48,974 nucleotides of DNA from positions 1 through 48,974 of IMG/VR virus record IMGVR_UViG_3300042314_002510; one strand, given 5' to 3'. Of the stretch, positions 5,344 to 46,312 are shown piece by piece. Origin of the DNA: a virus. Position numbers and translations under genes: made by a program. The notes beneath the pieces are model-generated. The model was not told the DNA's origin, made no database searches, and worked only from the letters and a program-made list of their open reading frames with translations. How positions within the stretch are numbered: the first letter of the stretch is position 1; each line of letters begins with the position of its first letter.

Positions 5344-6332
5344 GTAAAAAATTTAAAATACTATCAATAGATGGTGGAGGACTTAGAGGTCTAATCCCCC
5401 TATTGATATTAAAAGAAGTTGAGAAAATAACCGGAAAGAAAATTTACGAGTTATTTGATTTAATAGTTGGAACGTCAACAGGTGGTATAATCGCTTGTGG
5501 ATTAACCGCAAGTAAAGACGGTAAAACTCCGGTATTGTCAATTGACAAATTGATTGAATTATACACCACAAAAGGTAATGTGATTTTCCCATATAAAAAT
5601 AATATCTTCAATAAAATCAATTCGGTATTCAATCCTAAATTTTGTCCTGAAGGATTAGACAATGAGTTGTCAAATTACTTTCAAACATTAAAATTGAGTA
5701 ACACATTAAAACCAATTATTGTAACATCATATGATATTAGAAATAATGAAGTTGTAATGTTTAAAAGTCGTAAATCAAATGAAGTAGGTTATGATTGTTT
5801 ACTGAAAGATGTTTGTAGAGCAACATCAGCGGCACCAACTTATTTACCTTCATATGAAATGAATTATGGTGGTAAGTTAAGAACTTGTATAGATGGTGGT
5901 GTGTTTGTAAATAACCCCTCATTGGTAGGTATATCGGATGTCGTAAGAAATACTTATGGGTTTGGTGAAATTAATGTTGAGGATATCTCATTATTTTCTT
6001 TAGGTACAGGTATTTATACAGAAAACTTAGGAGTTAAAGAAACTAAGAGCTGGGGGTTAAAAGATTGGGTTAAACCAATCACCGATGTTATGTCACAAGC
6101 AACCTCAAAAGTTGTTGATTATGAGTGTAACGAGTTCTTAGACAATTATCTACGTGTTCAGGTAACAATAGATGATGAAAGTAAAAGTGATATGTCAGAT
6201 TCAAGAATTGAAACGACAAATTATTTGATTAGTAGAGTAAACACTCAAGTTTTAAAGAACGTTAATAAATTAAACGAAATAAAAGAATTTTTAAAAAAGT
6301 TAGGTAATGATAGAATCAATCTTATTAGTTGA
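5340..6332 (+). CDS. patatin-like phospholipase
   Basis: A 330-residue patatin-family lipid acyl hydrolase. The oxyanion loop is DGGGLRG (residues 9-15), the nucleophile is in GTSTG (S46), and the dyad aspartate is in DGGVFVNNPS (D185). All catalytic parts are intact. The family removes acyl chains from membrane phospholipids; relatives include the CapV effector of CBASS defence. No signal peptide or membrane helix is visible, so it would act on the inner leaflet from the cytoplasm. It is coupled at both ends, by ATGA to the kinase and by a 26-base overlap to the response regulator, which implies fixed stoichiometry and control by phosphorelay. Whether it serves lysis, membrane remodelling or exclusion of other phages is not known. 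Confidence 0.93.
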   Translation: MSKKFKILSIDGGGLRGLIPLLILKEVEKITGKKIYELFDLIVGTSTGGIIACGLTASKDGKTPVLSIDKLIELYTTKGNVIFPYKNNIFNKINSVFNPKFCPEGLDNELSNYFQTLKLSNTLKPIIVTSYDIRNNEVVMFKSRKSNEVGYDCLLKDVCRATSAAPTYLPSYEMNYGGKLRTCIDGGVFVNNPSLVGISDVVRNTYGFGEINVEDISLFSLGTGIYTENLGVKETKSWGLKDWVKPITDVMSQATSKVVDYECNEFLDNYLRVQVTIDDESKSDMSDSRIETTNYLISRVNTQVLKNVNKLNEIKEFLKKLGNDRINLIS

Positions 6333-7724: not shown

Positions 7725-9584
7725 ATGAGTAAAATTATTGGAATTGACTTAGGAACTACGAATTCGTGTGTTGCCGTAATGGAAGGGAATGAACCTGTTG
7801 TAATCCCTAACAGTGAGGGAAAAAGAACAACACCATCAGTAGTTGGATTTGTTAATGAAGAAAGAAAAGTTGGTGACCCTGCTAAAAGACAATCAGTTAC
7901 TAACCCAACTAATACGGTTTATTCTGTTAAACGTTTTATGGGTTCATCATTTGATGAATGTGTGAATGAAACTACAAAAGTTCCATATTCTGTAATTAAA
8001 GGGAAAAACAATTCCCCAAGAGTAAAAATTGATAATAAAGAATTTTCACCACAAGAAATTTCAGCAACTATCTTACAAAAGATGAAAAAAACTGCGGAAG
8101 ATTATTTGGGGTCAACTGTAACTGAAGCGGTTATTACTGTTCCTGCTTACTTTAATGACGCACAAAGACAAGCAACAAAAGAAGCTGGTGAAATCGCAGG
8201 TTTAACTGTTAGACGTATTATCAACGAACCAACCGCTGCGGCATTGGCTTACGGTTTAGATAAGAAATCAAAAGACGCTGTTGTTGTTGTATTTGATTGC
8301 GGTGGGGGTACGCATGATGTTTCAATCCTTGAATTAGGTGACGGAGTATTTGAAGTAATGTCAACAGATGGGGACACTCACTTAGGTGGTGATGACTTCG
8401 ACCAAACAATTATTGATTACTTAGTAGGAATCTTCAAAGATGAAAATGGTATTGATGTTAGTAAAGACCCAATGGCGTTACAAAGATTAAAAGAGGCTGC
8501 TGAGAAAGCGAAAATTGAGTTATCATCAACCTCATCAACAGAAATTAACTTACCTTACTTAATGCCGGTTGATGGTGTTCCAAAACACTTAGTAACTTCT
8601 TTAAGTAAATCTAAATTCGAACAATTAGTTCAACCATTAGTTGACAGAACTATTAAACCGTGTGAAAGTGCGTTGAAAAGTGCGGGTATTAAAGTAACCG
8701 ATATTGATGAAGTTATTTTAGTAGGTGGAACAACAAGAATTCCAGCAATTCAGGAGGCCGTTAAAAAATTCTTTGGTAAAGAACCTTCAAAAGGTGTTAA
8801 CCCTGATGAGGTAGTTGCGTTAGGTGCGGCAATCCAAGGTGGTGTATTAGCTGGTGATGTAAAAGACGTGTTATTATTAGATGTTACCCCACTTTCATTA
8901 GGTATCGAAACTATGGGAGGTGTATTCACTAAATTAATTGAATCTAACACAACAATCCCAACTAAAAAATCACAAGTATTCTCTACGGCAGTTGATAACC
9001 AACCAAGTGTTGATATCCACGTATTACAAGGGGAAAGAGCGATGGCTAAGGACAACAAAACTATTGGTAAATTCCAATTGACTGATATTCCACCATCACA
9101 AAGAGGTGTTCCGCAAATCGAAGTAACTTTTGATATTGACGCTAACGGTATCATTAATGTATCTGCGTTGGATAAAGGAACAAACAAAGTTCAATCAATT
9201 AAAATTGAAGCGTCTTCAGGATTGTCTAAAGAAGAAATTGAAAGAATGAAATCTGAAGCTGAAGCAAATGCTGAAAACGATAACAAATTACGTGAGGAGG
9301 TTGAATTAATTAATAAAGCTGACAGTGTTGTGTTCCAATCTGAAAAATCAATTAAAGATTTGGAAGATAAAATCTCAGAAACTGATAAAACAGAATTAAC
9401 TGAATTGGTTTCAAGTTTAAAAGAATCTGTTGAGAAACGAGAATTAGACGTTTTGGAGTCGAAAATTGAATCAGTCAATACTAAGTTCCAATCAGTATCT
9501 CAAAACTTGTATGATGAGTCAAATGTAACTGATGAGGTGAATGATAGTGATTTTTCTGATGTGGAATTTGACGAAGTGAAATAG
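7725..9584 (+). CDS. dnaK: Hsp70 chaperone DnaK
   Basis: A full-length 619-residue DnaK. The nucleotide-binding domain starts [14 protein letters not shown] and includes [19 protein letters not shown] and [11 protein letters not shown]. The substrate-binding domain has [16 protein letters not shown] and [13 protein letters not shown], and the tail ends DVEFDEVK, close to the EEVD-like end of bacterial DnaK. One oddity is the phosphate-2 loop, [11 protein letters not shown], where DnaK normally has FDLGGGTFDVS (C192 and H197 here). No dnaJ or grpE is in the window, so it may use host co-chaperones. Probably acquired from a Bacteroidetes host. It could fold abundant phage proteins or replace a stressed host chaperone. 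Confidence 0.97.
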
Positions 9585-27488: not shown

Positions 27489-27575
27489 GGAGAGTATCTG
27501 GCAGGATGAAGAGCTACTCTTGAAAAGTAGTAAGACGTGTAATGGGTCTTGTGGGTTCGAGTCCCACACTCTCCT
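27489..27575 (+). tRNA. tRNA-Ser(TGA)
   Basis: Acceptor GGAGAGT/ACTCTCC. Anticodon arm CTACT-CTTGAAA-AGTAG, anticodon TGA. Long variable arm closed by AAGAC/GTCTT, as in class II serine tRNAs. T-arm GTGGG-TTCGAGT-CCCAC. CCA is not encoded. First tRNA after the leader motif. Confidence 0.95.
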
Positions 27576-27590
27576 CAAAAAAATAGAGTT

Positions 27591-27716
27591 ATGGTAAAAA
27601 GAGAAGTATTGACGGGAACATTTGAGTCAAGTAAAAGATTTTTAAGACAAGAGCCTAAAGAGGTTAAACTAAAATTCAGATTAATTAGAAAATTAATCAA
27701 AAGGTTACATAAGTAA
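27591..27716 (+). CDS. small basic peptide gene
   Basis: A 41-residue highly basic frame (MVKREVLTGTFESSKRFLRQ...), ending in an Arg/Lys/Leu helix. It fills most of the gap between two tRNA genes and has a normal ATG after an A-rich leader. It could bind RNA; unrecognised. Confidence 0.45.
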   Translation: MVKREVLTGTFESSKRFLRQEPKEVKLKFRLIRKLIKRLHK

Positions 27717-27723
27717 CCATTAT

Positions 27724-27798
27724 TGTCCTGTAGGCGACGTTGGCAGAGCCACCACACTTTGAATGTGGATATCGCAGGTTCGATTCCTGCCGGGACAA
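27724..27798 (+). tRNA. tRNA-Gln(TTG)
   Basis: Acceptor TGTCCTG/CGGGACA with U1:A72, typical of glutamine tRNAs. Anticodon arm CCACA-CTTTGAA-TGTGG, anticodon TTG. T-arm GCAGG-TTCGATT-CCTGC. No CCA. Confidence 0.95.
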
Positions 27799-27809
27799 CA
27801 ATAAAACAA

Positions 27810-27875
27810 TTAGTTATTTCACGTTAAAAGATGGTCTTATAGGCTCACGAAGGCCGTGTCAACATCAATAACTAA
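27810..27875 (+). ncRNA. structured spacer closed by nine-base-pair stem
   Basis: TTAGTTATT (27810) pairs perfectly with AATAACTAA (27867). Inside, CACG/CGTG and GATG/CATC can pair. It is tRNA-sized but has no T-loop TTCRA. No open frame. Confidence 0.4.
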
Positions 27876-27881
27876 TAAATT

Positions 27882-27954
27882 GGGTCAGTTGCCAAGTTGG
27901 TCAAGGCACTTGTCTGAAGAACAAGCAATGGGGGTTCGATTCCCTCCTGTCCCA
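27882..27954 (+). tRNA. tRNA-Phe(GAA)
   Basis: Acceptor GGGTCAG/CTGTCCC with one T-T mismatch. Anticodon arm CTTGT-CTGAAGA-ACAAG, anticodon GAA. T-arm GGGGG-TTCGATT-CCCTC. Discriminator A. No CCA. Confidence 0.93.
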
Positions 27955-27955
27955 C

Positions 27956-28030
27956 GAGGTCCTGAATTAACAGGATACCCCCACCTCCGATATGGCAGTC
28001 AGTCCGTTAAGCTGATGAAGTGGGGTTTTT
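27956..28030 (+). ncRNA. structured spacer with two competing stems
   Basis: GAGGT (27956) can pair with ACCTC (27983). CCCCAC (27979) can instead pair with GTGGGG (28020), which precedes TTTTT and would be a terminator. The stems share two bases and exclude one another, as in an attenuator. CCTG/CAGG forms a local hairpin. Confidence 0.4.
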
Positions 28031-28034
28031 ATAT

Positions 28035-28109
28035 GGTGGCTATAGTGTTAGTGGTCGAGCACGTAAGTTTGTGGTTCTTATAGGTTGGGTTCGAATCCCA
28101 ATAGTCACC
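28035..28109 (+). tRNA. tRNA-His(GTG)
   Basis: An extra 5' G pairs with discriminator C, the histidine identity element (G-1:C73). Acceptor GTGGCTA/TAGTCAC. Anticodon loop TTGTGGT, anticodon GTG. T-arm TTGGG-TTCGAAT-CCCAA. One T-T mismatch closes the anticodon stem. Confidence 0.92.
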
Positions 28110-28123
28110 CAATTAATTTTTAA

Positions 28124-28339
28124 AACTTAGAAATCACAGAGACAGAAAAAACATTTATCAGTTCCGACTTAGAAAATGGTCGATGGTTATCTCCAATCGT
28201 AAGTGAAAGGAAATGGCAAGAAGAAAAATTAGTTGAGATATTCGGTCATTATCCGAACGCAAGTCCTAAATGGCAATATCTCAATGGTTTGATACACATT
28301 GCATTAGATTACATTAAACAAAATGAAGAAAAAATTTGA
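28124..28339 (+). pseudogene. 71-codon open frame without a usual start codon
   Basis: A frame after the TAA at 28121 reads NLEITETEKTFISS...GRWLSPIVSERKWQEEKLVE and ends at TGA 28339. It has protein-like composition (WQEEKLVEIFGHYPNASPKW) but no ATG, GTG or TTG near its beginning. It is either a decayed gene whose 5' end was lost beside tRNA-His or uses an unusual start. The next gene starts 26 bases later. Confidence 0.35.
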
Positions 28340-28365
28340 CAAGTTGTAGGTTAAAAACCACAACT

Positions 28366-28563
28366 ATGAGTACAAACATCAACAGAGCAAAACTGAACAA
28401 AGCACAAAATGGTAGAGAATACCGAAATAGATTGATAAATGACTTTTATCCAATTTATTGGGATGACGGAATTACTTTCTACGGAAACAAAATGAGTTAT
28501 CAAGTTAGAATGTATAAGACTTGGAAACACTACAGAAAAACTCAATATAAGGTAATAACCTAA
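28366..28563 (+). CDS. small basic protein of unknown function
   Basis: A 65-residue basic protein (MSTNINRAKLNKAQNGREYR...). I prefer the ATG at 28366 to an upstream TTG at 28336. It is rich in Tyr, Arg and Lys (YQVRMYKTWKHYRKTQYKVI), consistent with nucleic-acid binding. Its last codons lie in the first unit of a 29-base hairpin repeat array. Confidence 0.55.
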   Translation: MSTNINRAKLNKAQNGREYRNRLINDFYPIYWDDGITFYGNKMSYQVRMYKTWKHYRKTQYKVIT

Positions 28564-28656
28564 TAATGGGTGAATATTAGGTTAAAACCTAATAATTGAT
28601 GAATATAAGGCTGGAACCTTATAATGGTCGATTATAAGTCTCCAACCTTATTATTT
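28547..28656 (+). repeat. tandem 29-base hairpin repeat array, 3.8 units
   Basis: Units start at 28547, 28576, 28605 and 28634 with the pattern AT(A/T)AGG-nnnnAA-CCT(A/T)AT-AATnnnnGA. In units 2 and 3 both stem arms change together (ATTAGG/CCTAAT, ATAAGG/CCTTAT), which argues for selected RNA hairpins. The last unit runs into tRNA-Arg. Confidence 0.75.
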
Positions 28657-28728
28657 GGTTCCTTGGTGTAATGGATAGCACCTATCGCTACGGACGATAA
28701 TGTCAAGGTTCGAGTCCTTGGGGGACTA
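28657..28728 (+). tRNA. tRNA-Arg(ACG)
   Basis: Acceptor GGTTCCT/GGGGACT with several G-T pairs. Anticodon arm TATCG-CTACGGA-CGATA, anticodon ACG. T-arm CAAGG-TTCGAGT-CCTTG. An A34 tRNA would need host TadA editing to read all CGN-type codons. No CCA. Confidence 0.92.
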
Positions 28729-28768
28729 CGTATCCGATGTGTGATACCGAGCTAGGTCGGTGTAATTT

Positions 28769-28856
28769 GGAAGATTACCCAAGTTGGTGAAGGGGTCACA
28801 TTGCTAACGTGATAGGTCTGAAATATGACGCGTGGGTTCGAGCCCCACATCTTCCG
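28769..28856 (+). tRNA. tRNA-Ser(GCT)
   Basis: Acceptor GGAAGAT/ATCTTCC, discriminator G. Anticodon loop TTGCTAA, anticodon GCT. Long variable arm as in class II. T-arm GTGGG-TTCGAGC-CCCAC. An ACCGA/TCGGT hairpin lies just upstream (28746-28761). Confidence 0.93.
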
Positions 28857-28863
28857 CAGAAAC

Positions 28864-28933
28864 ACCGAGGCTTAGAGGAAAAGAACTATCTCTCATAAGG
28901 ATGGTCAAGTGGGTTCGAAACCCATACTCGGTA
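28864..28933 (+). tRNA. tRNA with CAT anticodon (elongator Met or Ile2)
   Basis: Acceptor ACCGAGG/ACTCGGT with the last pair mismatched. Anticodon arm TATCT-CTCATAA-GGATG, anticodon CAT. T-arm GTGGG-TTCGAAA-CCCAT. The D-arm is short and A-rich. It lacks initiator features. With another Met tRNA at 44731 and an Ile(TAT) tRNA at 30284, its charge cannot be decided by eye. Confidence 0.85.
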
Positions 28934-28954
28934 CAAAAAAATATTACAAAGGTA

Positions 28955-29024
28955 TTGTGAGAATGGAAATGATTACTTATCTTTGTTAGACAAAAGAAAA
29001 GGTCTTTGACATATTGGTTTAGAA
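28955..29024 (+). promoter_or_regulatory. promoter and leader motif of second tRNA unit
   Basis: TTG (28955) and TATCTTTG (28978-28985), then GGTCTTTGACATATTGG (29001-29017) and TTTAGAA. The same leader as before the other tRNA units. Confidence 0.75.
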
Positions 29025-29032
29025 AGAAATAA

Positions 29033-29107
29033 CGGGGTGTAGTCTTGGGGTGAGACGCTTGGTTTGGGACCAAGAGGCGGCAGGTTCGACACCTGCCACC
29101 CCGACCA
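29033..29107 (+). tRNA. tRNA-Pro(TGG), CCA encoded
   Basis: Acceptor CGGGGTG/CACCCCG. Anticodon arm CTTGG-TTTGGGA-CCAAG, anticodon TGG. T-arm GCAGG-TTCGACA-CCTGC. Discriminator A followed by encoded CCA, the only canonical tRNA here with it. Confidence 0.96.
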
Positions 29108-29115
29108 AAAATTAA

Positions 29116-29189
29116 CGGAATGTAGCTCAGCTGGTAAGAGCATTCGCCTGATACGTGAAAGGTCGTAGGTTCGAACCCTACCATTCCGA
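29116..29189 (+). tRNA. tRNA-Ile(GAT)
   Basis: Acceptor CGGAATG/CATTCCG. D-arm GCTCAGCTGGTAAGAGC. Anticodon loop CTGATAC, anticodon GAT. T-arm GTAGG-TTCGAAC-CCTAC. No CCA. Confidence 0.95.
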
Positions 29190-29315
29190 CTACTTAATAC
29201 CGAATCGGGTTTGTCAGTAAAGTGGGACCCTGCGACTATGACACTTAGGTGTAATTAGAGAAAATGACATTAAATAACCCACCACGGAAGGTGTTATCGG
29301 TGACCTTCTATTTTT
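29190..29315 (+). ncRNA. structured spacer ending in terminator-like hairpin
   Basis: No open frame. GAAGGT (29287) pairs with ACCTTC (29303), followed by TATTTTT, so some transcripts may end here before tRNA-Lys. GTGGG (about 29222) can pair with CCCAC near 29278, closing the upstream part. Confidence 0.35.
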
Positions 29316-29390
29316 GACTTCGTAGCTCAGTTGGTTTAGAGCAGTACACTTTTAATGTACGGGTCGTGAGTTCGATTCTCACCGGGGTCA
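29316..29390 (+). tRNA. tRNA-Lys(TTT)
   Basis: Acceptor GACTTCG/CGGGGTC. D-arm GCTCAGTTGGTTTAGAGC. Anticodon arm GTACA-CTTTTAA-TGTAC, anticodon TTT. T-arm GTGAG-TTCGATT-CTCAC. No CCA. Confidence 0.96.
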
Positions 29391-29398
29391 CAATAATT

Positions 29399-29470
29399 AG
29401 CCCTTTAGCTTAAAGGTGAAGTACTTGTTTTACATACAAGATAGTGTAGGTTCGAGTCCTACAGGGGCTA
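29399..29470 (+). tRNA. tRNA-Val(TAC)
   Basis: Acceptor AGCCCTT/AGGGGCT. Anticodon arm CTTGT-TTTACAT-ACAAG, anticodon TAC. T-arm GTAGG-TTCGAGT-CCTAC. No CCA. Confidence 0.95.
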
Positions 29471-29477
29471 CAAAATG

Positions 29478-29571
29478 TTAAGTTGGGTTTCCTAGTGGTA
29501 ACGGTATGAACTATAGTAAGTAAGCCACAAGATTCTAGTAATAAGCGACAGATGGATTACTCGCGACTTAA
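29478..29571 (+). ncRNA. tRNA-like structured spacer
   Basis: TTAAGTTG (29478) pairs with CGACTTAA (29564) over eight base pairs. A D-arm-like GTTTCCTAGTGGTAAC follows the 5' strand, and GTAAT/ATTAC forms a 3' hairpin, but the T-loop signature and a clear anticodon arm are missing. It may be a decayed tRNA or a separate small RNA. Confidence 0.4.
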
Positions 29572-29580
29572 TATTTAATT

Positions 29581-29654
29581 GGACAGATGCCTGAGTGGTT
29601 TAAAGGGGTGGACTGCAAATCCACTATCCGGGGGTTCGAATCCCTCTCTGTCCT
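29581..29654 (+). tRNA. tRNA-Cys(GCA)
   Basis: Acceptor GGACAGA/TCTGTCC, discriminator T (U73 is the Cys identity base). Anticodon arm GTGGA-CTGCAAA-TCCAC, anticodon GCA. T-arm GGGGG-TTCGAAT-CCCTC. No CCA. Confidence 0.96.
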
Positions 29655-29680
29655 CAATGAAATATATTGTTTCATTATTT

Positions 29681-29752
29681 GCATCATTGGTGTAATGGCT
29701 AGCATAAATGGTTCCAACCCATTTGGTCAGGGTTCGAGTCCTTGGTGGTGCG
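29681..29752 (+). tRNA. tRNA-Trp(CCA)
   Basis: Acceptor GCATCAT/GTGGTGC, discriminator G as usual for Trp. Anticodon arm AATGG-TTCCAAC-CCATT, anticodon CCA. T-arm CAGGG-TTCGAGT-CCTTG. Confidence 0.93.
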
Positions 29753-29755
29753 CAA

Positions 29756-29819
29756 ATATCGTAGGAGAGTTGATTAAGTTCAAACCCGCCGTTAAATTGT
29801 GAAGGACAATCTACGATAT
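29756..29819 (+). ncRNA. structured spacer closed by nine-base-pair stem
   Basis: ATATCGTAG (29756) pairs perfectly with CTACGATAT (29811). Inside, ATTGT-gaagg-ACAAT forms a hairpin. tRNA-sized without a T-loop. It fills almost the whole gap between tRNA-Trp and tRNA-Tyr. Confidence 0.45.
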
Positions 29820-29823
29820 ATTC

Positions 29824-29906
<83 letters not shown>

Positions 29907-29932
29907 CAATAAAAAAAAATTTAAACCAATTG

Positions 29933-29962
29933 TTGACACTTTTCAAAACTTTGATATATTTA
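29933..29962 (+). promoter_or_regulatory. promoter of micro-ORF cassette 2
   Basis: TTGACA (29933) and TATATTTA (29955-29962), 19 bases apart, one base off the -7 consensus. Confidence 0.6.
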
Positions 29963-29984
29963 ATTAGTAAAGAATAACAAAATT

Positions 29985-30059
29985 ATGCAAAACTTGAATA
30001 ACATACTAATAGCGAGAACGGAGGGAGACAATCCTTGTGTATCGGAGAAGGTGTGTTAA
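29985..30059 (+). CDS. 24-residue micro-ORF in promoter-terminator cassette
   Basis: The frame MQNLNNILIARTEGDNPCVSEKVC lies between its own promoter and an intrinsic terminator, the same design as at 27171-27405. The two peptides share no obvious sequence beyond containing Cys, so the RNA, the act of translation, or the peptide could be the functional part. Confidence 0.4.
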   Translation: MQNLNNILIARTEGDNPCVSEKVC

Positions 30060-30083
30060 TTCATTAAACATAAAATTTAAATG

Positions 30084-30117
30084 AAACCCTTCTCCAAAAG
30101 AGAGGGGTTTTTTTTGT
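30084..30117 (+). terminator. intrinsic terminator of micro-ORF cassette 2
   Basis: AACCCTTCTC-caaaa-GAGAGGGGTT with a T run; the loop CAAAA is the same as in cassette 1. Confidence 0.9.
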
Positions 30118-30125
30118 TACCTACG

Positions 30126-30198
30126 TTTGGTAAATCAAAATAAAAGCATTAGATTTGTCAGACAAAAGAAAAAAGTTCTTTGACATATTGGTTTAGAA
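30126..30198 (+). promoter_or_regulatory. promoter and leader motif of third tRNA unit
   Basis: TTTG (30126) and TAGATTTG (30150-30157), then GTTCTTTGACATATTGG (30175-30191) and TTTAGAA. Closest to the rRNA-leader form. Confidence 0.8.
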
Positions 30199-30204
30199 GT
30201 TAAT

Positions 30205-30277
30205 ATCCTCGTGACGGAAAGGTATACGTCCTTGTCTTAGAAACAAGGTTTTGTGGGTTCGAATCCCACCGAGGATA
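30205..30277 (+). tRNA. tRNA-Leu(TAG) with short variable arm
   Basis: Acceptor ATCCTCG/CGAGGAT. Anticodon arm CTTGT-CTTAGAA-ACAAG, anticodon TAG (reads CUA). T-arm GTGGG-TTCGAAT-CCCAC. The variable region is only about five bases, whereas bacterial leucine tRNAs have a long one. The D-stem GACG/CGTC is also unusual. Confidence 0.85.
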
Positions 30278-30283
30278 CATAAT

Positions 30284-30357
30284 GGTTCAGTAGCTCAACA
30301 GGTGAGAGCAGGACGCTTATATCGTCAAGGTTGGGGGTTCAAATCCCTCCTGAACTA
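30284..30357 (+). tRNA. tRNA-Ile(TAT)
   Basis: Acceptor GGTTCAG/CTGAACT. D-arm GCTCAACAGGTGAGAGC. Anticodon loop CTTATAT, anticodon TAT (reads AUA directly, avoiding lysidine). T-arm GGGGG-TTCAAAT-CCCTC. Confidence 0.9.
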
Positions 30358-30388
30358 CTGAAAAAATAAAAAATAAAAAATAAAAATT

Positions 30389-30904
30389 ATGTCAATATAT
30401 AGTGTTGGTAGAAAAACTTACGGTTCTGAAAATATTAAAATTTACGAATGGGGTGAAGGTAAAACAATTAAAATAGGGTCTTTTTGTTCAATAGCAACAA
30501 ATATTCAAATTTTTATTGGGGGTAATCATAGACCTGATTGGATTACAACATTCCCATTTCCACATTCGTTTAGTGTGGGTCATCCGTCATCTAATGGTGA
30601 TGTTATAATTGGTAATGATGTTTGGATTGGTGCTAATGCAACAATAATGTCAGGTGTTATTATTGGTGATGGTGCCGTTATTGCAAATAATTCTCACGTA
30701 GTAAAAAATGTTGAACCTTACACTATTGTTGGAGGTAATCCAGCTAAACCTATCCGTAAAAGATTTGATGATGAAACAATTCAAAAACTTTTAAAATTAA
30801 AATGGTGGGATTTTAATGATGATGAGATAAATAGAATAACCCCAATTTTATGTTCTAGTAATATAAACGAATTGTTTGAATTATATAAGGATAAATTACT
30901 TTAA
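30389..30904 (+). CDS. left-handed beta-helix acetyltransferase (CatB/Vat type)
   Basis: A 171-residue hexapeptide-repeat acetyltransferase. The isoleucine-patch repeats run through the middle (IGSFCSIATNIQIFIGGNH, VIIGNDVWIGANATIMSGVI, IGDGAVIANNSHV). The catalytic His is in GGNHRPDWITTFPF and the family ends YTIVGGNPAKPIRKRF. This matches the CatB/Vat group (xenobiotic or polysaccharide O-acetyltransferases). It sits between two tRNA transcription units, an odd place for a cargo gene. Acetylation of host surface glycans to exclude other phages is one possibility; the substrate is unknown. Confidence 0.9.
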   Translation: MSIYSVGRKTYGSENIKIYEWGEGKTIKIGSFCSIATNIQIFIGGNHRPDWITTFPFPHSFSVGHPSSNGDVIIGNDVWIGANATIMSGVIIGDGAVIANNSHVVKNVEPYTIVGGNPAKPIRKRFDDETIQKLLKLKWWDFNDDEINRITPILCSSNINELFELYKDKLL

Positions 30905-30912
30905 AAAAAGTC

Positions 30913-30987
30913 TTGTATAATCAAAAGTAAATACTTAGATTTGTAAGACAAAAGAAAACAAAAGGTCTTTGACATATCGGAATAGAA
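30913..30987 (+). promoter_or_regulatory. promoter and leader motif of fourth tRNA unit
   Basis: TTG (30913) and TAGATTTG (30936-30943), then GGTCTTTGACATATCGG (30964-30980) and AATAGAA, a slightly diverged leader. Confidence 0.75.
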
Positions 30988-30997
30988 AAAATAAAAT

Positions 30998-31071
30998 GTC
31001 GCGTTAGACGAGTGGTTTAAGTCGTCACCCTTTCAAGGTGAAAATCACGGGTTCGAATCCCGTACGCGATA
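30998..31071 (+). tRNA. tRNA-Glu(TTC)
   Basis: Acceptor GTCGCGT/ACGCGAT. Anticodon arm TCACC-CTTTCAA-GGTGA, anticodon TTC. T-arm ACGGG-TTCGAAT-CCCGT. No CCA. Confidence 0.95.
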
Positions 31072-31076
31072 CATAT

Positions 31077-31148
31077 CGCGGGATGGGGGAGTGGTCACCC
31101 CGCTGGGCTCATAACCCTGAGACACAGGTTCGAATCCTGTTCCCGCTA
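31077..31148 (+). tRNA. initiator tRNA-fMet(CAT)
   Basis: Anticodon loop CTCATAA with three consecutive G-C pairs (GGG/CCC) in the stem, the initiator hallmark. The first acceptor pair is mismatched (C1-T72), as needed for formylation and to avoid EF-Tu. T-arm ACAGG-TTCGAAT-CCTGT. A phage-borne initiator is uncommon. Confidence 0.92.
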
Positions 31149-31157
31149 CTAAATAAA

Positions 31158-31342
31158 ACAAGTGAGGACGGTGAGTAAACCCTCACTGTCTATAAATCCC
31201 AAGACGGTACTTGATTCGCGGTAGTAAAGTTATTGAGGGTAGAATTACTATAAGTCTGGGATTAGCTACCCAAATGACGAAAATGTAATCACCGAGTAAA
31301 ATTGGTTATGATGTGTAATGGTCACGAAAAACTTGTTTTTTT
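31158..31342 (+). ncRNA. ~185-base structured RNA between tRNA genes
   Basis: ACAAGT (31158) pairs with ACTTGT (31331), followed by T7. Inside are GTGAGG/CCTCAC, AATCCC...AGAC with GTCT...GGGATT (ten pairs with one bulge) and TAGTAA/TTACTA. No meaningful open frame. The nested long-range stems and the T run make this the best small-RNA candidate in the tRNA block. Confidence 0.5.
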
Positions 31343-31347
31343 AAAAT

Positions 31348-31419
31348 GGTCTATTAGTGTAGTGGCTAACATACATCCCTGTCACGGATGTGCCGCGAGT
31401 TCGATTCTCGCATAGACCG
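31348..31419 (+). tRNA. tRNA-Asp(GTC)
   Basis: Acceptor GGTCTAT/ATAGACC, discriminator G. Anticodon arm CATCC-CTGTCAC-GGATG, anticodon GTC. T-arm GCGAG-TTCGATT-CTCGC. Confidence 0.96.
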
Positions 31420-31423
31420 CGGG

Positions 31424-31635
31424 AGTGTACACAGTAGAGTTCTGTTTGAGAGAGGATTGTAACACGCACTTTAAAATGAGGTTACAAGGTATCAAACCGT
31501 TTATTCAGTTTTGACCGATAAAAACTGACGATTTTTTGAGAAATTTTAAGTCGATATAAAATTTCTTCGTGATATTAGTAGGTTTGGCCGCCTCATCACG
31601 TTAATGTGATGAAACATACCCAATGGAGTAATCAC
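31424..31635 (+). ncRNA. spacer of consecutive hairpins
   Basis: Successive stems: TTGTAAC/GTTACAA, CAGTTTT/AAAACTG followed by ATTTTTT, GAAATTTTA/TAAAATTTC, and CATCAC/GTGATG. No open frame. The second resembles a terminator, so read-through control is possible. Confidence 0.4.
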
Positions 31636-31640
31636 AACTT

Positions 31641-31713
31641 GCGGTAGTCGTATAATGGTTTATTATATAACCTTGCCAAGGTTAGGACGGAGGTTCGATT
31701 CCTCTCTACCGCT
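31641..31713 (+). tRNA. tRNA-Gly(GCC)
   Basis: Acceptor GCGGTAG/CTACCGC. Anticodon arm TAACC-TTGCCAA-GGTTA, anticodon GCC. T-arm GGAGG-TTCGATT-CCTCT. Discriminator T. Confidence 0.95.
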
Positions 31714-31843
31714 CAAAATAAAGGAGTTATAACCCTTTATATGGATGGTTCGAAACATCCGATTGAGTATGGTGTACGGTGCACGGATGATGGTAATACG
31801 GATTCAAGATTAAGGTTCAATTCCTTATTATTCAGCAAAGAGA
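31714..31843 (+). ncRNA. two degenerate tRNA-like elements
   Basis: The first (31714-31770) has a T-arm-like GGATG-GTTCGAAA-CATCC and an arm AAAGG/CCTTT but no D-arm; CTCAA/TTGAG would close it. The second (31760-31832) has T-arm TAAGG-TTCAATT-CCTTA and a weak acceptor TGAGTAT/TTATTCA, but no normal anticodon arm. Probably decayed tRNAs or tRNA-like regulators. Confidence 0.4.
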
Positions 31844-31859
31844 AATAACACTCTTAATT

Positions 31860-31932
31860 GGTCTCTTAGTATAATGGCTTATTATTCTGGCTTTGTAACC
31901 CAGAGATAACGGTTCGAATCCGTTAGGGACCT
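31860..31932 (+). tRNA. tRNA-Thr(TGT)
   Basis: Acceptor GGTCTCT/AGGGACC. Anticodon loop TTTGTAA, anticodon TGT; the last stem pair is a C-C mismatch. T-arm AACGG-TTCGAAT-CCGTT. Discriminator T. Confidence 0.92.
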
Positions 31933-31938
31933 CACAAT

Positions 31939-32010
31939 GGACTATTAGCTCAGCGGTAGAGCAATCGGCTGTTAACCGATAGGTCGTAGGTTCGAATCCT
32001 TCATGGTCCG
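31939..32010 (+). tRNA. tRNA-Asn(GTT)
   Basis: Acceptor GGACTAT/ATGGTCC, discriminator G. Anticodon arm ATCGG-CTGTTAA-CCGAT, anticodon GTT. T-arm GTAGG-TTCGAAT-CCTTC with one mismatch. Confidence 0.95.
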
Positions 32011-32027
32011 CAAAAAAGAGGAAAAAC

Positions 32028-32069
32028 TTGTGTAGGTGCCTCAAGGGACTGCTGCCCTACTACACTCAA
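32028..32069 (+). ncRNA. short structured spacer
   Basis: GTGTAG (32030) pairs with CTACAC (32060), extended by TTG/CAA. It abuts tRNA-Leu directly, leaving one base or none between them. Confidence 0.35.
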
Positions 32070-32149
32070 GGACCTGTGGTGAAATTGGTATACACGCTTT
32101 CTTTAAGCGGAAGTTCTTAGGATTGTGGGTTCGACTCCCACCAGGTTCA
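32070..32149 (+). tRNA. tRNA-Leu(TAA)
   Basis: Acceptor GGACCTG/CAGGTTC. Best anticodon arm CTTTC-TTTAAGC-GGAAG, anticodon TAA (reads UUA). D-arm GTG...CAC. Variable arm about 11 bases, short for leucine. T-arm GTGGG-TTCGACT-CCCAC. A shifted fold gives other anticodons but with a worse stem. Confidence 0.88.
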
Positions 32150-32155
32150 CAATAG

Positions 32156-32231
32156 TGTCTCAGAACGCTCTGATAAGGTAACTTATTAACGATGAGGTCT
32201 CGGTAGACAGAACGCGTCTGATTCTACCCAA
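32156..32231 (+). ncRNA. structured spacer
   Basis: CAGA/TCTG, ATAAG-gtaa-CTTAT, and GGTAG...CTACC enclosing AGAC/GTCT. No open frame. It fills the gap between tRNA-Leu and tRNA-Gly. Confidence 0.35.
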
Positions 32232-32235
32232 ATTA

Positions 32236-32308
32236 GCGGGTGTCGTATAGTGGATTATTATATTAGACTTCCAATTTAAAGACGAGGGTTCGATTCCCTC
32301 CACCCGCT
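32236..32308 (+). tRNA. tRNA-Gly(TCC)
   Basis: Acceptor GCGGGTG/CACCCGC. Anticodon loop CTTCCAA, anticodon TCC; stem TTAGA/TTTAA includes a G-T pair. T-arm GAGGG-TTCGATT-CCCTC. Discriminator T. Confidence 0.94.
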
Positions 32309-32314
32309 CAAAAT

Positions 32315-32418
32315 AGACAACAAACTCTTCACCGAGGAAAACCTTTAAAACAGATTCACAACTATAAAGGTCGTTGAGTTGGGTAATAATAAATGTGAGT
32401 ATTACCTGTTGTCTTTTT
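32315..32418 (+). ncRNA. ~104-base structured RNA with closing stem and T run
   Basis: AGACAACA (32315) pairs perfectly with TGTTGTCT (32407), followed by TTTTAT. Inside are AACTC/GAGTT, CCTTTA/TAAAGG and GGTAATA/TATTACC. It has the same plan as the 31158-31342 element: outer stem, inner arms, terminal T run. Confidence 0.5.
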
Positions 32419-32423
32419 ATTAT

Positions 32424-32496
32424 GGGGGTATCGTATAATGGCTTATTACGGTAGATTTGCAATTTACAAATCTGGTTTCGATTACCAGTACCTCCA
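32424..32496 (+). tRNA. tRNA-Ala(TGC)
   Basis: Acceptor GGGGGTA/TACCTCC. The usual alanine G3:U70 pair is present. Anticodon loop TTTGCAA, anticodon TGC; stem GTAGA/TTTAC. T-arm CTGGT-TTCGATT-ACCAG. Confidence 0.94.
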
Positions 32497-32505
32497 CCAT
32501 ATTTT

Positions 32506-32578
32506 GGTCCTATGATGTAACTGAATAGCATAAGCCCCTTCTAAGGGTTTCGTTGGGGTTTGAATCCCTGTAGGACTA
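32506..32578 (+). tRNA. tRNA-Arg(TCT)
   Basis: Acceptor GGTCCTA/TAGGACT. Anticodon loop CTTCTAA, anticodon TCT; stem AGCCC/GGGTT. T-loop TTTGAAT departs from TTCRA and is shared only with the tRNA fragment near 32983. Its 3' end overlaps the HNH gene stop. Confidence 0.9.
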
Positions 32579-32938
32579 CTCGTTGTGATGACGGATACGA
32601 TGACAATTTGAACAAAGTAAATCACATTTATCAAGTTCTTTAATTATTTTATCCCAAGAACGTTTTCGTAAGTGAGTCCATTCAACATCTTTTTGTGATG
32701 GGTCACGATGATGAAAATCAAAAATAACATATGGTGATTTAGGGTATGAATTAGAACAATCTAAACATTTACCACCTTTATACTCAATAGCTTTTATTTT
32801 TGTTTTAATCCAACGTTCAGAACAATATTTATTGAAGCAGACTTTACATTTTGATTGTTTTGAAGGTCTATCGTTTTGTTGATAGAATTCAGTTACTGAT
32901 TTTTCTTCATTACACGAAGTACAAATTTTAGTTTCCAT
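32576..32938 (-). CDS. HNH endonuclease inserted in the tRNA array
   Basis: A 120-residue HNH-type nuclease. I place the start at 32938 (METKICTSCNEEKSVTEFYQ) because the upstream ATG at 33028 would extend through tRNA-derived sequence. An N-terminal treble-clef-like region (CTSC, CKVC, YC) precedes FDFHHRDPSQKD with the catalytic His and a closing CSNCHRIRHH. It runs against the tRNA genes, overlaps the tRNA-Arg 3' end by three bases, and is followed on its 5' side by a tRNA 3' fragment. This is the pattern of a homing nuclease that has landed in a tRNA gene. Confidence 0.88.
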   Translation of the reverse strand: METKICTSCNEEKSVTEFYQQNDRPSKQSKCKVCFNKYCSERWIKTKIKAIEYKGGKCLDCSNSYPKSPYVIFDFHHRDPSQKDVEWTHLRKRSWDKIIKELDKCDLLCSNCHRIRHHNE

Positions 32939-38907: not shown

Positions 38908-39104
38908 AAAAATTTAATTACAAAAAATATCAGTTATTAGATTGTTTAGATGAAATATCATCAACACAAAAAATGATTGATTTACATAGTGATAATTCAG
39001 ATAGAATTAGTAATTTTATGATGTCTCAATATAGAGATATGAGAAAACAAAGTATTATAGAATTTAATAAAATATCATATGGAAAGAAAATTAGCAACGA
39101 TTAG
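38904..39104 (+). CDS. small helical protein of unknown function
   Basis: A 66-residue basic helical protein (MKKFNYKKYQLLDCLDEISS). It overlaps genes on both sides (ATGA upstream, 26 bases downstream), so it is embedded in the ligase operon. No family recognised. Confidence 0.6.
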   Translation: MKKFNYKKYQLLDCLDEISSTQKMIDLHSDNSDRISNFMMSQYRDMRKQSIIEFNKISYGKKISND

Positions 39105-40113
39105 ACAAATTGACAACATCCAACCAATCGAAGGTGCGGATATGATTGAATTAGCAACCGTTGGGGGGTGGAAAGTCGTAGTTGCAAAAAATGTTAACCA
39201 CAAAGTTGGGGATTTAGTTGTTTACTGTGAGATTGACTCTTTTTTACCAATCGAACCTGAGTTTGAATTTTTACGTAAAAGTTCTTACAAGAAAATGGCC
39301 GACGGTACTGAAGGTTTCAGATTAAAAACTATTAAATTAAGAGGACAAGTTTCTCAAGGTTTAATTTTACCATTAAAAGATGCTTACGAAGTTTTCAAAA
39401 GAAACACTCCCAATATAGATATGGATTGGTTTGAAGGTTTAGAAGTAACTGAAATGTTAAACATTGTAAAATACGAACCACCTGTTCCTGCACAATTATC
39501 AGGACAAGTTAAAGGTATGTTCCCATCTTTTTTAAAGAAAACTGATGAGGAAAGAATTCAAAACTTGACAAGAGAGTTTGAAGGGTACAAGAACGAAGTG
39601 TTTTATGTGACTGAAAAGTTAGATGGTTCTAGTGTAACTTACTACGTTAAAGACGGTGTGTTTGGTGTATGTTCTCGTAACTTAGATTTAGTTGAGAGTG
39701 AAGGTAACTCAATGTGGAAATTTGCAATCACAAGTGGATTAAAAGAACGTTTACTAGCGTTAGATAGAAACATTGCGGTCCAAGGGGAAATCATTGGTGA
39801 GGGTATTCAAGGTAACCCATATAAAATCATCGGACAAACTGTTAGATTGTTTAATGGTTTTGATATTGATAAGTATGAATATTTATCTTTGGATGATTTA
39901 CTTAAATTATCTAAATGGTTAGAGGTAAAAACAGTTCCAATCTTAGATTTAGAATTTAGATTACCTGACACAATTGATGAGTTATTATCTTATGCCGATA
40001 GTAAATCAGTATTGAATGAAAAGTTCGATAGAGAAGGAATTGTAATTCGTTCTCACGATAGAAAAATCAGTTTTAAGGTGATTTCTAATAAATTTTTATT
40101 AAATGAAAAATGA
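39079..40113 (+). CDS. RNA ligase, Rnl5 (DraRnl)-like
   Basis: A 344-residue ATP-dependent RNA ligase. The N-terminal OB-like domain (about 1-140) matches Rnl5: KLATIRQIDNIQPIEGADMI, VGDLVVYCEIDSFLP. The nucleotidyltransferase domain has motif I EKLDGSS (lysine K180), motif III FNGFDI, motif IV EGIVIR and motif V SFKVIS. Rnl5 ligases seal 3'-OH/5'-phosphate nicks in duplex RNA or RNA-DNA hybrids. It would repair nicked tRNA or mRNA, including host anticodon-nuclease damage. Coupled to the preceding small gene and overlapping the next by ATGA. Confidence 0.92.
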   Translation: MERKLATIRQIDNIQPIEGADMIELATVGGWKVVVAKNVNHKVGDLVVYCEIDSFLPIEPEFEFLRKSSYKKMADGTEGFRLKTIKLRGQVSQGLILPLKDAYEVFKRNTPNIDMDWFEGLEVTEMLNIVKYEPPVPAQLSGQVKGMFPSFLKKTDEERIQNLTREFEGYKNEVFYVTEKLDGSSVTYYVKDGVFGVCSRNLDLVESEGNSMWKFAITSGLKERLLALDRNIAVQGEIIGEGIQGNPYKIIGQTVRLFNGFDIDKYEYLSLDDLLKLSKWLEVKTVPILDLEFRLPDTIDELLSYADSKSVLNEKFDREGIVIRSHDRKISFKVISNKFLLNEK

Positions 40114-41063: not shown

Positions 41064-42119
41064 ATGAAAGCAACGTTAGAAAAATATTACAACGATGGAT
41101 TATTGTACAAACAAGTACATTCAACTTTACCATTAACTATATGGAATTACACTGAGAAAGTTCAGTTTGAAGACTTATGGGATGAGGTAACCTTGATGTG
41201 CCGTGGTTTAGTAACTGACGATAACGGTAATATAGTTGCAAGACCATTCAGAAAATTCTTCAATATGGAAGAAGGGAAACATACTTCAACTGATGAATTC
41301 AAAGTCTATGAAAAAATGGATGGTTCATTGGGTATATTTTTCCACTATGAAGGTGAATGGGTGATGGCAACTCGTGGGTCATTTACTTCTGACCAATCGG
41401 TAAAAGGTATGGAAATGTTATCTAAATACGACTACAACAAATTACATAAAGATTTCACTTACTTATTTGAAATAATATATTCTGACAACAGAATAGTTTG
41501 TTCTTATGATTTTGAAGATGTTGTTTTACTTGGTGCGGTAAACACTAAAGACGATTACGAAGTTAGTTTACACGGTGACTCAGATATAAGAATACAAAAC
41601 TTAGTGAAAAACATAGGTCTTAATGTAGTTAAACGTTATGATGGTATATCAGACTATTCAGTGTTAAAAGAGATGGTTAGAGACGATGCTGAGGGGTTTA
41701 TAGTTCACTTCTCAAATGGTAATAGAATGAAAGTTAAAGGTGTTGAATACTTACGTCTACACAAAATAATGACTAACGTATCAACTACTGGTATATGGGA
41801 ATGTTTAAAAAATGGTGATGATGTTTTAGAATTGATGAAAGAAGTTCCTGACGAATTCTACAAAAAAATAAAATCTTACGTTAAAGACTTGAGATACGCT
41901 CACTACTCAATATCCGAATACTGTGGTAAAATGCACGACGGATTTAGATACGGAAAATATGGTGACGTTGACCCTGAACCATCTAAGAAAGAATACGCAG
42001 AGTTTGTTATGAAAAACATAAAAGAAGGTCTTAGAGGTGTAATGTTTCAGATGTGGGATAAAAAAGATTACGATGAAACTATATGGAAACTAATAAGACC
42101 GGAATTCAAAAAGTTATAA
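41064..42119 (+). CDS. RNA ligase, T4 Rnl1-like
   Basis: A 351-residue RNA ligase of the Rnl1 group. Motif I is EKMDGSLG (K84), preceded by the family CRGLVTDDNGNIVARPFRKFFN. Motif III is FEII in YLFEIIYSDNR, motif IV EGFIVHF and motif V RMKVKGVEYLRL. The C-terminal helical domain (about 240-351) suits recognition of tRNA anticodon loops, as in T4 Rnl1, which restores tRNA-Lys cut by PrrC. With about 27 phage tRNAs, an Rnl5-like ligase, a P-loop kinase and phosphatases, it completes a plausible repair pathway. Confidence 0.93.
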   Translation: MKATLEKYYNDGLLYKQVHSTLPLTIWNYTEKVQFEDLWDEVTLMCRGLVTDDNGNIVARPFRKFFNMEEGKHTSTDEFKVYEKMDGSLGIFFHYEGEWVMATRGSFTSDQSVKGMEMLSKYDYNKLHKDFTYLFEIIYSDNRIVCSYDFEDVVLLGAVNTKDDYEVSLHGDSDIRIQNLVKNIGLNVVKRYDGISDYSVLKEMVRDDAEGFIVHFSNGNRMKVKGVEYLRLHKIMTNVSTTGIWECLKNGDDVLELMKEVPDEFYKKIKSYVKDLRYAHYSISEYCGKMHDGFRYGKYGDVDPEPSKKEYAEFVMKNIKEGLRGVMFQMWDKKDYDETIWKLIRPEFKKL

Positions 42120-43765: not shown

Positions 43766-43840
43766 TTGACAAATCAAAAAGAAAGTCTTAAATTTGTAAA
43801 ACAAAATCGGAAAAGTCCGAAAGAGTTCTTTGAAAAATTG
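43766..43840 (+). promoter_or_regulatory. promoter and leader motif of large RNA locus
   Basis: TTGAC (43766) and TAAATTTG (43789-43796), a strong consensus, followed by a TCGGA/TCCGA hairpin and GTTCTTTGAAAAATTG (43825-43840), a variant of the leader motif found before the tRNA units and the tmRNA. Confidence 0.75.
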
Positions 43841-44730
43841 AATTATCCGTTCAGAATGTTTGATGATGAGACCCTTGTGGTTGATTTTGAGTAACAAACT
43901 GATAAAGATATTTGGCCGTGTATGGTCATTAAATAAACTACGAAAGTAGGATAAAGTGGACCCCCAAGTGTAACGGGTCTGCGTCTTGGGAAACTGAGGT
44001 CGAGTACACAAGCGGGATACCGTATAACCTTTAGTATCGAGGTCAACGATGTAGAGAAAGTGGTTATATGATTTGGTGATGTGGGTCATCAAATTGAGGT
44101 GGGAACACCAATAGGAATAACTCGTAGGAATTATGTGAGAAATAGTGTTATCCGATATTATTATTACGAGTTCCAATATAAGAGGTGACTTAAAACCGAA
44201 AGGTATGAAAACAAACAGGTGGTGCTGACATTTTCCTTGATTATTCTTTACCAAAAGAATTTTCTCGAAGTAATCTTAAAATATTGAGGTAGGGATACTT
44301 CACAGAGTAGTTTGGTATTTCGTTGTTCAAAAGACGACGAATCTAAAAGACGGACCACTACTTTGATTCATCCACAACACAAAAACTTTAATTTACAAGG
44401 TTAATGTAAAAATTAAATTATAAATTTAAGCAAAAGTGTTCGTCAGGTAATAGTGAAAGGTGACTACATAGTAATGAGCAGTTCATTGCCTAGGAAGACC
44501 GCAAGTCGACCTAAATTCTTACCAAAAACCTCTAATCTCGCAAGGATTAATTGGGAAGGCATTCTCGAAGAGAGTTGAGTAATGAGAGAGTAACTATTAT
44601 CTCAAGGAGTGGTTCACCTAAAAAACCGTCACTGAGGAATACTTCTCAAAAGGAAGTGGATAAGAAGGGAAACAATAATCCTTCAAAAGGTTCTCAATAA
44701 TACGTATAATCTCAGCGTTTTTTTATATAT
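43800..44730 (+). ncRNA. large (~0.9 kb) structured non-coding RNA, GOLLD/ROOL-like candidate
   Basis: About 930 bases without a plausible plus-strand gene. Local structure is dense. GNRA tetraloops occur in CTAC-GAAA-GTAG (43938), GGTG-GGAA-CACC (44098), ACC-GAAA-GGT (44195), and stems around GCAA near 44501 and 44540. Longer stems include ATTTGGTGA/TCATCAAAT (44070), AACTCGTA/TACGAGTT (44118, 44165), ATTCTTT/AAAGAAT (44242), AGTAGT/ACTACT (44306, 44356), AGGTAAT/ATTGCCT, and ACTTC/GAAGT. It has its own promoter and leader and runs into a tRNA-Met and terminator. Giant phage RNAs near tRNAs (GOLLD, ROOL) have this setting, but I cannot confirm the family by eye. Confidence 0.7.
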
Positions 44731-44803
44731 AGCAGGGGGGAGGTAAGGTATCTCATCGGTCTCATAAGCCGACCCAAGCTGGTTCGATTCCGGTCCGTTG
44801 CTA
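44731..44803 (+). tRNA. tRNA-Met(CAT), elongator type
   Basis: Anticodon arm TCGGT-CTCATAA-GCCGA, anticodon CAT. D-arm GAG...CTC. T-arm GCTGG-TTCGATT-CCGGT. Acceptor pairing AGCAG/TTGCT is imperfect toward the stem base. It sits at the 3' end of the large RNA, so it may serve as that transcript's processing signal. Ends are approximate. Confidence 0.85.
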
Positions 44804-44812
44804 CGATACAAT

Positions 44813-44839
44813 AAGGGAAAGTTATCTTTCCCTTTTTTT
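44813..44839 (+). terminator. intrinsic terminator of large RNA/tRNA unit
   Basis: AAGGGAAAG-TTAT-CTTTCCCTT with a T run, ten bases after the tRNA. Confidence 0.92.
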
Positions 44840-45923: not shown

Positions 45924-46312
45924 TGGTGGAGATAGAGGGACTCGAACCCTCGTGTCGTACATTTTAAGTATTAAGGACTACACGCTTAGGTCAACATTTT
46001 CTAATGTTCCGAAAATAGTTATTTTTGTTCTTCACCATCGTAAAAATAACAACCAATGGACGATTCGATTTACGGACTCAATCGTTTTTCCGTCTTTTTA
46101 AAGACTTCTGTTCCTGGGTTATATGTCCATCGACCCGCGTCGTCGTAACTTCTTAAGCTACAACAACTTCTTCTTCACGGATTAATCCGATTTTAGAAAG
46201 AGTATTTAAAACGTTGCCGTTTGTACTTCGATACCATAGATTTAAGTGATAGATATCGTCTCACTGCGTGCCCCGAATAGTTAACCATGTCGGTCAATTC
46301 CAAGTTATCCCC
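45924..46312 (-). ncRNA. ssrA: tmRNA with unusual, long tag frame
   Basis: A 389-base transfer-messenger RNA. The 5' acceptor GGGGATA pairs with TATCTCC near the 3' end, which encodes ACCA. T-arm GAGGG-TTCGAGT-CCCTC. The D-loop-like start is AACTTGGAATTGACCGAC. The probable tag frame ends EEEVVVA and then TAA, TAA at about 46154-46156 (minus). If resume is at GGC near 46221, the tag is 21 residues (GNVLNTLSKIGLIREEEVVV plus A), far longer than the usual 8-12 and without the ALAA end. The tag start is uncertain. Confidence 0.88.

Follow-up and report, generated by a model that had tools for sequence, protein, structure and literature searches.

A GOLLD RNA with a boxA-like leader in a large uncultured phage

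The window (the whole 48,974-nt stretch of viral DNA analysed here) carries stable RNA genes in three places (Table 1): (i) a 25-tRNA array with internal leaders, (ii) a GOLLD RNA with its own leader, a 5' domain and a 3' domain, followed by a tRNA-Met and a terminator-like stem, and (iii) a tmRNA on the opposite strand. Two RNA ligase genes reside upstream of the GOLLD RNA, and 10 and 11 loci, respectively, have relatives of them at a distance of 3-6 kb on the upstream side of GOLLD. Elsewhere, the window includes a full-length HSP70/DnaK gene at 7725-9584 (PF00012, 850.8 bits) and a GAF/PAS/HATPase sensor-kinase-like gene (3574-5343) that overlaps a patatin-like phospholipase gene (5340-6332).

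Table 1. Features of the window that bear on the GOLLD RNA and its setting.
Feature	Position	Strand	Basis and remarks
25-tRNA array	27489..32579	+	ARAGORN; 11 kb upstream of GOLLD
Internal promoter and boxA-like leaders in the tRNA array	28955-29009, 30127-30183, 30913-30972	+	composite motif
Two RNA ligase genes upstream of GOLLD	39079-40113, 41064-42119	+	PF09414 with phrog_968; PF09511
Longest open frame, 174 aa	43730-44254	antisense	spans the 5' domain
Bacteroidota-form promoter, TTG-N20-TAAATTTG	43766..43796	+	predicted; TTGACA at 43766-43771
Leader hairpin, TCGGA-AAAG-TCCGA	43807..43820	+	boxB-like position, ahead of the boxA-like element
boxA-like element, GTTCTTTGA	43825..43833	+	kept in 19 of 21 aligned sequences
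GOLLD 5' domain	43844..44301	+	nhmmer relatives, covariation; outside the Rfam model
GOLLD 3' domain, RF02032	44303..44718	+	cmscan, 314.4 bits
Long-range 7-bp helix, strand 1, GACGGAC	44349..44355	+	pairing and covariation; outside the nested Rfam structure
Variable linker	44381..44430	+	29-51 nt among 21 sequences
Long-range 7-bp helix, strand 2, GTTCGTC	44438..44444	+	strands 1 and 2 enclose the linker
Atypical tRNA-Met (CAT)	44729..44802	+	ARAGORN; ~10 nt past the GOLLD 3' end
Terminator-like 9-pair stem, then T run TTTTTGTTTC	44813..44834	+	sequence
tmRNA	45924..46312	-	RF00023, 74.5 bits (cmscan); own leader 46375-46318

The initial annotation described a giant structured RNA and left its class between GOLLD, ROOL and a new family, to be decided by cmscan against Rfam. 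When the whole window is searched, RF02032 (GOLLD) matches the plus strand at full length (model positions 1-416 of 416) with 314.4 bits against a gathering score of 150 (E 2.8e-89). From this match the RNA is confidently identified as a member of the known GOLLD family, and a new class is not needed. ROOL, which is one of the families of Rfam, has no match in the window by cmscan. The RF02032 model represents the GOLLD 3' domain only, and the ~460-nt 5' domain matches no Rfam family by cmscan. The upstream stretch is also conserved, as an nhmmer query with window positions 43766-44304 finds relatives (at least 44 records among the matches listed, the window included).

Relatives were drawn from a scan of viral contigs with a GOLLD pattern (49 stretches), and the window was aligned with 20 distinct relatives over the leader, 5' domain and 3' domain (alignment A1, 21 sequences). 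RNAalifold predicts 222 pairs for A1, and 110 of these show a two-sided change in one or more sequences. The Rfam structure, once transferred to the 3' domain, has 93 pairs; it holds in 92.3% of cells, and two-sided changes are seen in 55 of these pairs and in 218 cells; the shuffled mean is 66.5 with none of 500 shuffles as high, and partners slid by 1-3 columns give at most 34 such cells. Weak spots of this domain are helix 11 (61% of cells paired) and helix 5 (74%). For the 5' domain and leader hairpin, the RNAalifold structure (121 pairs) pairs in 97.0% of cells, and 68 of its pairs show two-sided changes, which amount to 334 cells (94.8 +- 9.7 in shuffles, 0/500 as high); slid partners give at most 66 two-sided cells, an excess that is partly by construction, since the 5' structure is derived from A1 itself. 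The A1 sequences are related, and the shuffles therefore overstate the case. Both domains covary in the alignment, a check that the initial annotation had proposed. Folding energy is -229.5 kcal/mol compared to -205.4 +- 7.9 in 20 shuffles (z -3.05); this excess is modest, and the covariation forms the strong structural evidence for the stable folding first described. Identity to the window within its subgroup is 69-95% in the 5' part and 75-90% in the 3' part; thus, the 5' domain does not look clearly less conserved than the 3' domain.

At least five GNRA loops had been noted by inspection, and the five tetraloops of the 5' domain (closing bases 43941, 43989, 44101, 44197 and 44291) are kept in 21, 17, 21, 17 and 21 of the 21 A1 sequences, respectively. 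In the 3' domain, 146 of the 147 cells of the long-range helix are paired, and 12 cells have two-sided changes against 3.1 +- 1.4 shuffled; the numbers of pairs and of types do not rise above the shuffles, of which 134 and 144, respectively, reach the same level out of 500. The variable linker enclosed by this helix would roughly correspond to the place that is disordered inside the published cage, as judged by rough model coordinates. ARAGORN detects no tRNA within the linker in 53 records, several of them partial, nor in the wider set described below. A GC-bearing loop that reads CGCAA in all 21 sequences is presumed to be the L21a of GOLLD env-38.

The leader begins with a predicted promoter. 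The initial annotation had called a consensus promoter here, and TTGACA with a -10-like hexamer ending at 43794 does give 10 of 12 consensus matches, with the proviso that comparable sites are common (21 in the 3.1-kb stretch concerned versus 13.4 in shuffles). The window's TTG-N20-TAAATTTG fits TTG/TAnnTTTG, which is presumably the promoter form of the Bacteroidota. The hairpin that follows has two-sided changes in five of its five pairs, with 89.5% of cells paired among the 21 sequences. The two A1 sequences that lack GTTCTTTGA carry GTTCTTTAA and GTTCTTTTA instead.

Conservation of the boxA-like element was assessed in a wider set of 199 records, of which nhmmer finds a GOLLD-like 3' domain in 130 (94 distinct), by seeking GTTCTTTGA 300-900 nt upstream of the domain; 211 control windows, each 600 nt long, were taken from these loci. 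Of 67 GOLLDs with the window's type of 5' domain, 61 have the element upstream (410-525 nt away in 60), compared to one of the 211 controls. The remaining hit among the 61 (L030) lies 831 nt upstream, outside the leader. Window-type GOLLDs in which GTTCTTTGA was not found are L051 (LR756502), L346, L007, L259, L267 and L032. The element is also absent upstream of 8/8 GOLLD-like 3' domains with other 5' ends, which are GOLLD-like by nhmmer (scores 56-184), that of phage AM24 alone being checked by cmscan; thus, it is not claimed for GOLLD at large. TCTTTGA resides 27-40 nt after a Bacteroidota-form promoter in 20 of 27 loci, is farther from it in L005, L039 and L052, and does not follow one in L028, L007 and L030; a promoter was sought in L032 and none was found. 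In the 634,780-base phage LR745206, GTTCTTTGA resides ~510 nt upstream of GOLLD, just past a tRNA-Met, with a hairpin discerned by eye.

The promoter and core of the leader also precede other stable RNA genes, as the initial annotation had suggested of a leader motif for tRNA and tmRNA. The composite of promoter and TCTTTGA occurs five times in the window, whereas 100 first-order simulations average 0.06 and never exceed 1, and all five precede stable RNA genes: tRNA groups (28955, 30127 and 30913), GOLLD (43766) and, on the minus strand, tmRNA (46375). On its own, the 7-mer TCTTTGA shows no clear enrichment (15 in the window versus 12.5 +- 3.2 simulated). Across 52 loci (L002-L053), 30 distinct composites are noted, with 20 before GOLLD, three before tmRNA and one before tRNA (ARAGORN), and six unlabelled. 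Five of the unlabelled composites start a tmRNA by eye, which is confirmed in L041 and in L004 is the window's own tmRNA; the sixth is ahead of a protein frame. The tmRNA is on the strand opposite GOLLD in seven of eight relatives given to cmscan. ARAGORN missed the tmRNA of the window, and its tag, placed by eye, reads GNVLNTLSKIGLIREEEVVVA; tags of similar type called by ARAGORN in relatives end in VAVA, AVAA, VTVA and VEVA. Bacterial tmRNA tags typically end in LAA.

The phage element resembles boxA in its core and order and is read as boxA on that likeness. The GOLLD copy, GTTCTTTGAAA, differs at one position from GYTCTTTAANA, given as the gamma-proteobacterial boxA consensus in PMC5725501. 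In E. coli, boxB-boxA-boxC come after promoter P2 of the rRNA leader and again ahead of 23S; boxA is described as both necessary and sufficient for factor recruitment, yet its loss lowered rRNA-based translation only 2- to 3-fold (PMC10250234). A 17-mer from the window's tRNA leader, GTTCTTTGACATATTGG, of which the GOLLD copy GTTCTTTGAAA is not an exact match, was sought in GTDB genomes and found in at least 120 stretches, and the 80 listed were examined. About 73 of these are of Bacteroidota, judged from titles. A 16S-end or 23S-start mark is detected by regular expression on the expected side in 42 of the 80 and is not in 38. Of five loci given to cmscan, three (L059, L081 and L102) have the 17-mer between 16S and 23S, and no rRNA is reported at two (L057 and L124). 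An open frame of more than 70 aa lies downstream in 14 of 15 inspected loci without an rRNA mark. Thus, GTTCTTTGACATATTGG is not rRNA-specific. The Bacteroidales open frames preceded by GTTCTTTGACATATTGG (among L054-L133) include some with P-loop-like motifs by eye, and the 17-mer is often followed there by TTTACACG or ATTACCG; such sites are possibly other boxA-controlled host genes or the end of a mobile element.

At the 3' end, the strong terminator described earlier is recovered as a 9-pair stem followed by TTTTTGTTTC. The terminal tRNA-Met is real by ARAGORN and atypical, scoring 27.2 bits by cmscan, under the Rfam gathering score of 29; the array tRNAs listed by cmscan score 44.5-70.9 bits. 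A tRNA is detected by ARAGORN within 20 nt downstream of GOLLD in 10 of 35 distinct flanks, with four more by eye (L041, L007, L028 and L052), and L023 retains a remnant with acceptor- and T-arm-like parts, also by eye. These tRNAs range from good (L010, L009 and L039 with 61.4, 61.3 and 55.8 bits) to marginal (27.2-28.7 bits in L005, L013 and L024), whereas cmscan at E 0.5 gives no tRNA for either L041 or L007. Stem changes look compensated by eye among the window, L024 and L041. In the wider set, ARAGORN places a tRNA starting within 40 nt downstream in 19 of 85 flanks (13/61 window-type, 1/6 other and 5/18 unassigned). Wherever a tRNA is present, including Acinetobacter phage AM24, the GOLLD-tRNA spacing is 9-20 nt. 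The only other CAT tRNA of the window is the array tRNA-Met at 31077-31149; its GGG/CCC anticodon stem, seen by eye, is presumably an initiator tRNA feature.

The setting is that of a phage near tRNAs, with the array upstream and a tRNA 3' of GOLLD. Over the GOLLD region the window is matched identically by L004 and L015, which come from contigs of 126 and 174 kb, and a terminase match is found on 10/10 relatives' contigs searched. The terminase of L175 is less than 30% identical to the best 20 of 2450 phage records; these 20 are mostly from T4-like cyanophages and Flavobacterium phages, and the phage is thus probably T4-like. Comparison of neighbouring proteins reveals nothing close to any named phage. 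The host is probably a member of the Bacteroidota, based on the promoter form and the occurrence of the leader motif in Bacteroidota 16S-23S spacers; thus, of the Bacteroidetes-phage GOLLD originally suggested, the GOLLD part stands on RF02032 and the host part on these two leader features. Among 599 relatives, 80 loci were kept, and GOLLD is present on 12 of all 20 terminase-bearing contigs of at least 20 kb in this set (8 of 16 without the four already found by GOLLD) and is not found on one of 272 kb. GOLLD is not universal in the phage clade. It also occurs in two huge phages whose records are unannotated, LR756502.1 (L051, 642 kb, 275.3 bits) and LR745206.1 (L052, 635 kb, 287.3 bits).

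Other readings of the locus differ widely in probability. A giant-RNA class unrelated to GOLLD, to which the unmatched ~460-nt 5' domain could point, has a negligible probability and is ruled out by the full-length RF02032 match, which exceeds the cut-off by 164 bits; known GOLLDs, moreover, show lower conservation in their 5' region (PMC12286853). Equally negligible is that a protein-coding region was misread as RNA: a 174-aa antisense frame does span the 5' domain, yet this frame, the longest, has stops in 20/20 relatives, both domains covary, and the antisense gene is ruled out. The original view that the region holds no plausible gene, and the check for a conserved reading frame proposed with it, thus come to the same result.

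Less improbable, while still unlikely, is that GTTCTTTGA belongs to the fold of the GOLLD RNA as one of its strands and is not an antitermination signal. In the RNAalifold structure, TCTTT of the element is paired with AAAGR close to the 3' end of GOLLD and the pairing has few breaks, so conservation of the element could be partly structural, and the distance to the 3' domain is similar (410-525 nt) in 60 of 67. By contrast, the promoter and TCTTTGA are also ahead of three tRNA groups and the tmRNA, none of which is GOLLD, and the proposed pairing has zero cells changed on both sides; it was omitted from the counted structures because Rfam folds that part otherwise, leaving the AAAG unpaired. 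More evenly poised, a little short of an even chance, is that the 3' tRNA serves ordinary translation and simply adjoins GOLLD, a frequent situation for phage tRNAs, without a role in GOLLD maturation. The healthy tRNAs of L010, L009 and L039 and the absence of a 3' tRNA from most relatives are consistent with this; against it are the 9-20 nt spacing, shared with AM24, the remnant in L023, and the tRNAs of the window subgroup, which score 27-29 bits or go unreported and yet keep their stems by eye.

The locus as a whole is, with good confidence, best explained as a ~915-nt GOLLD RNA with a boxA-like leader in a large uncultured phage. A host sigma factor would start GOLLD transcription at the Bacteroidota-form promoter. 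By analogy to rRNA, the boxA-like element would likely recruit host NusB/S10 and Nus factors, such that the polymerase escapes Rho termination over ~1 kb of RNA that is structured and untranslated. RNase P cleavage at the tRNA 5' end may help to set the GOLLD 3' end, a step given slightly less than an even chance, with the terminator doing so where the tRNA is absent. By homology, the RNA would likely form a hollow homo-oligomeric cage, as GOLLD env-38 does. The weakest step, and a doubtful one, is that late in infection this cage serves the stable-RNA or translation programme of the phage, for example as a holder or protector of tRNAs or parts of the ribosome. It is somewhat probable that GOLLD, the tRNA groups and the tmRNA form a phage stable-RNA regulon, in which a common promoter and boxA-like leader take over the host rRNA antitermination machinery, so that the cage RNA would be produced in the manner of rRNA.

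What is new here, and open to testing, is the boxA-like leader. By having an rRNA-like leader in common with tRNA and tmRNA genes, GOLLD is linked to the phage translation programme; this leader suggests how the virus makes the GOLLD RNA, and its boxA-like element offers a cheap, testable handle on GOLLD. A literature search finds no paper linking GOLLD with boxA or with huge phages, as the four that contain both GOLLD and boxA, and the single one retrieved for huge phages, deal with plants, judged from titles; the founding GOLLD papers are outside its coverage, so priority is unproven.

Of the known systems, GOLLD env-38 forms a 14-mer cage, and GOLLD is among the largest known RNA-only assemblies; in the same source, its function is unknown, its expression rises during lysis, its linker sometimes holds tRNAs, and ribosomes bound GOLLD in pull-downs (PMC12286853). 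Two further papers note that GOLLD was dispensable in a Lactobacillus brevis prophage (PMC7567579) and that a mycobacterial GOLLD is part of a cluster of 32 tRNAs, with a pseudo-tRNA inside it (PMC6582537). The RNA of the window shares with env-38 a full-length 3' domain, a separate 5' domain, a variable linker and a phage setting with tRNAs, and may differ in its leader hairpin and boxA-like element. Reportedly, env-38 is downstream of a Met-tRNA and other GOLLDs have linker tRNAs, whereas the tRNA of the window is 3' of the RNA. The GOLLD of AM24 (L053) is likewise matched by RF02032 (214.7 bits) and followed by a tRNA 9-11 nt downstream; by contrast, its 5' end is mostly different (26 bits to the window's 5' profile), with no boxA-like element in the stretch searched. 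ROOL, which forms a cage (PMC12286853), is similarly a phage RNA near tRNAs; the window has no ROOL match. The window resembles rRNA leaders and spacers with boxA in the core GTTCTTTGA, a hairpin ahead of it and a longer form confirmed between 16S and 23S at three of five loci, whereas its element precedes phage GOLLD, tRNA and tmRNA genes.
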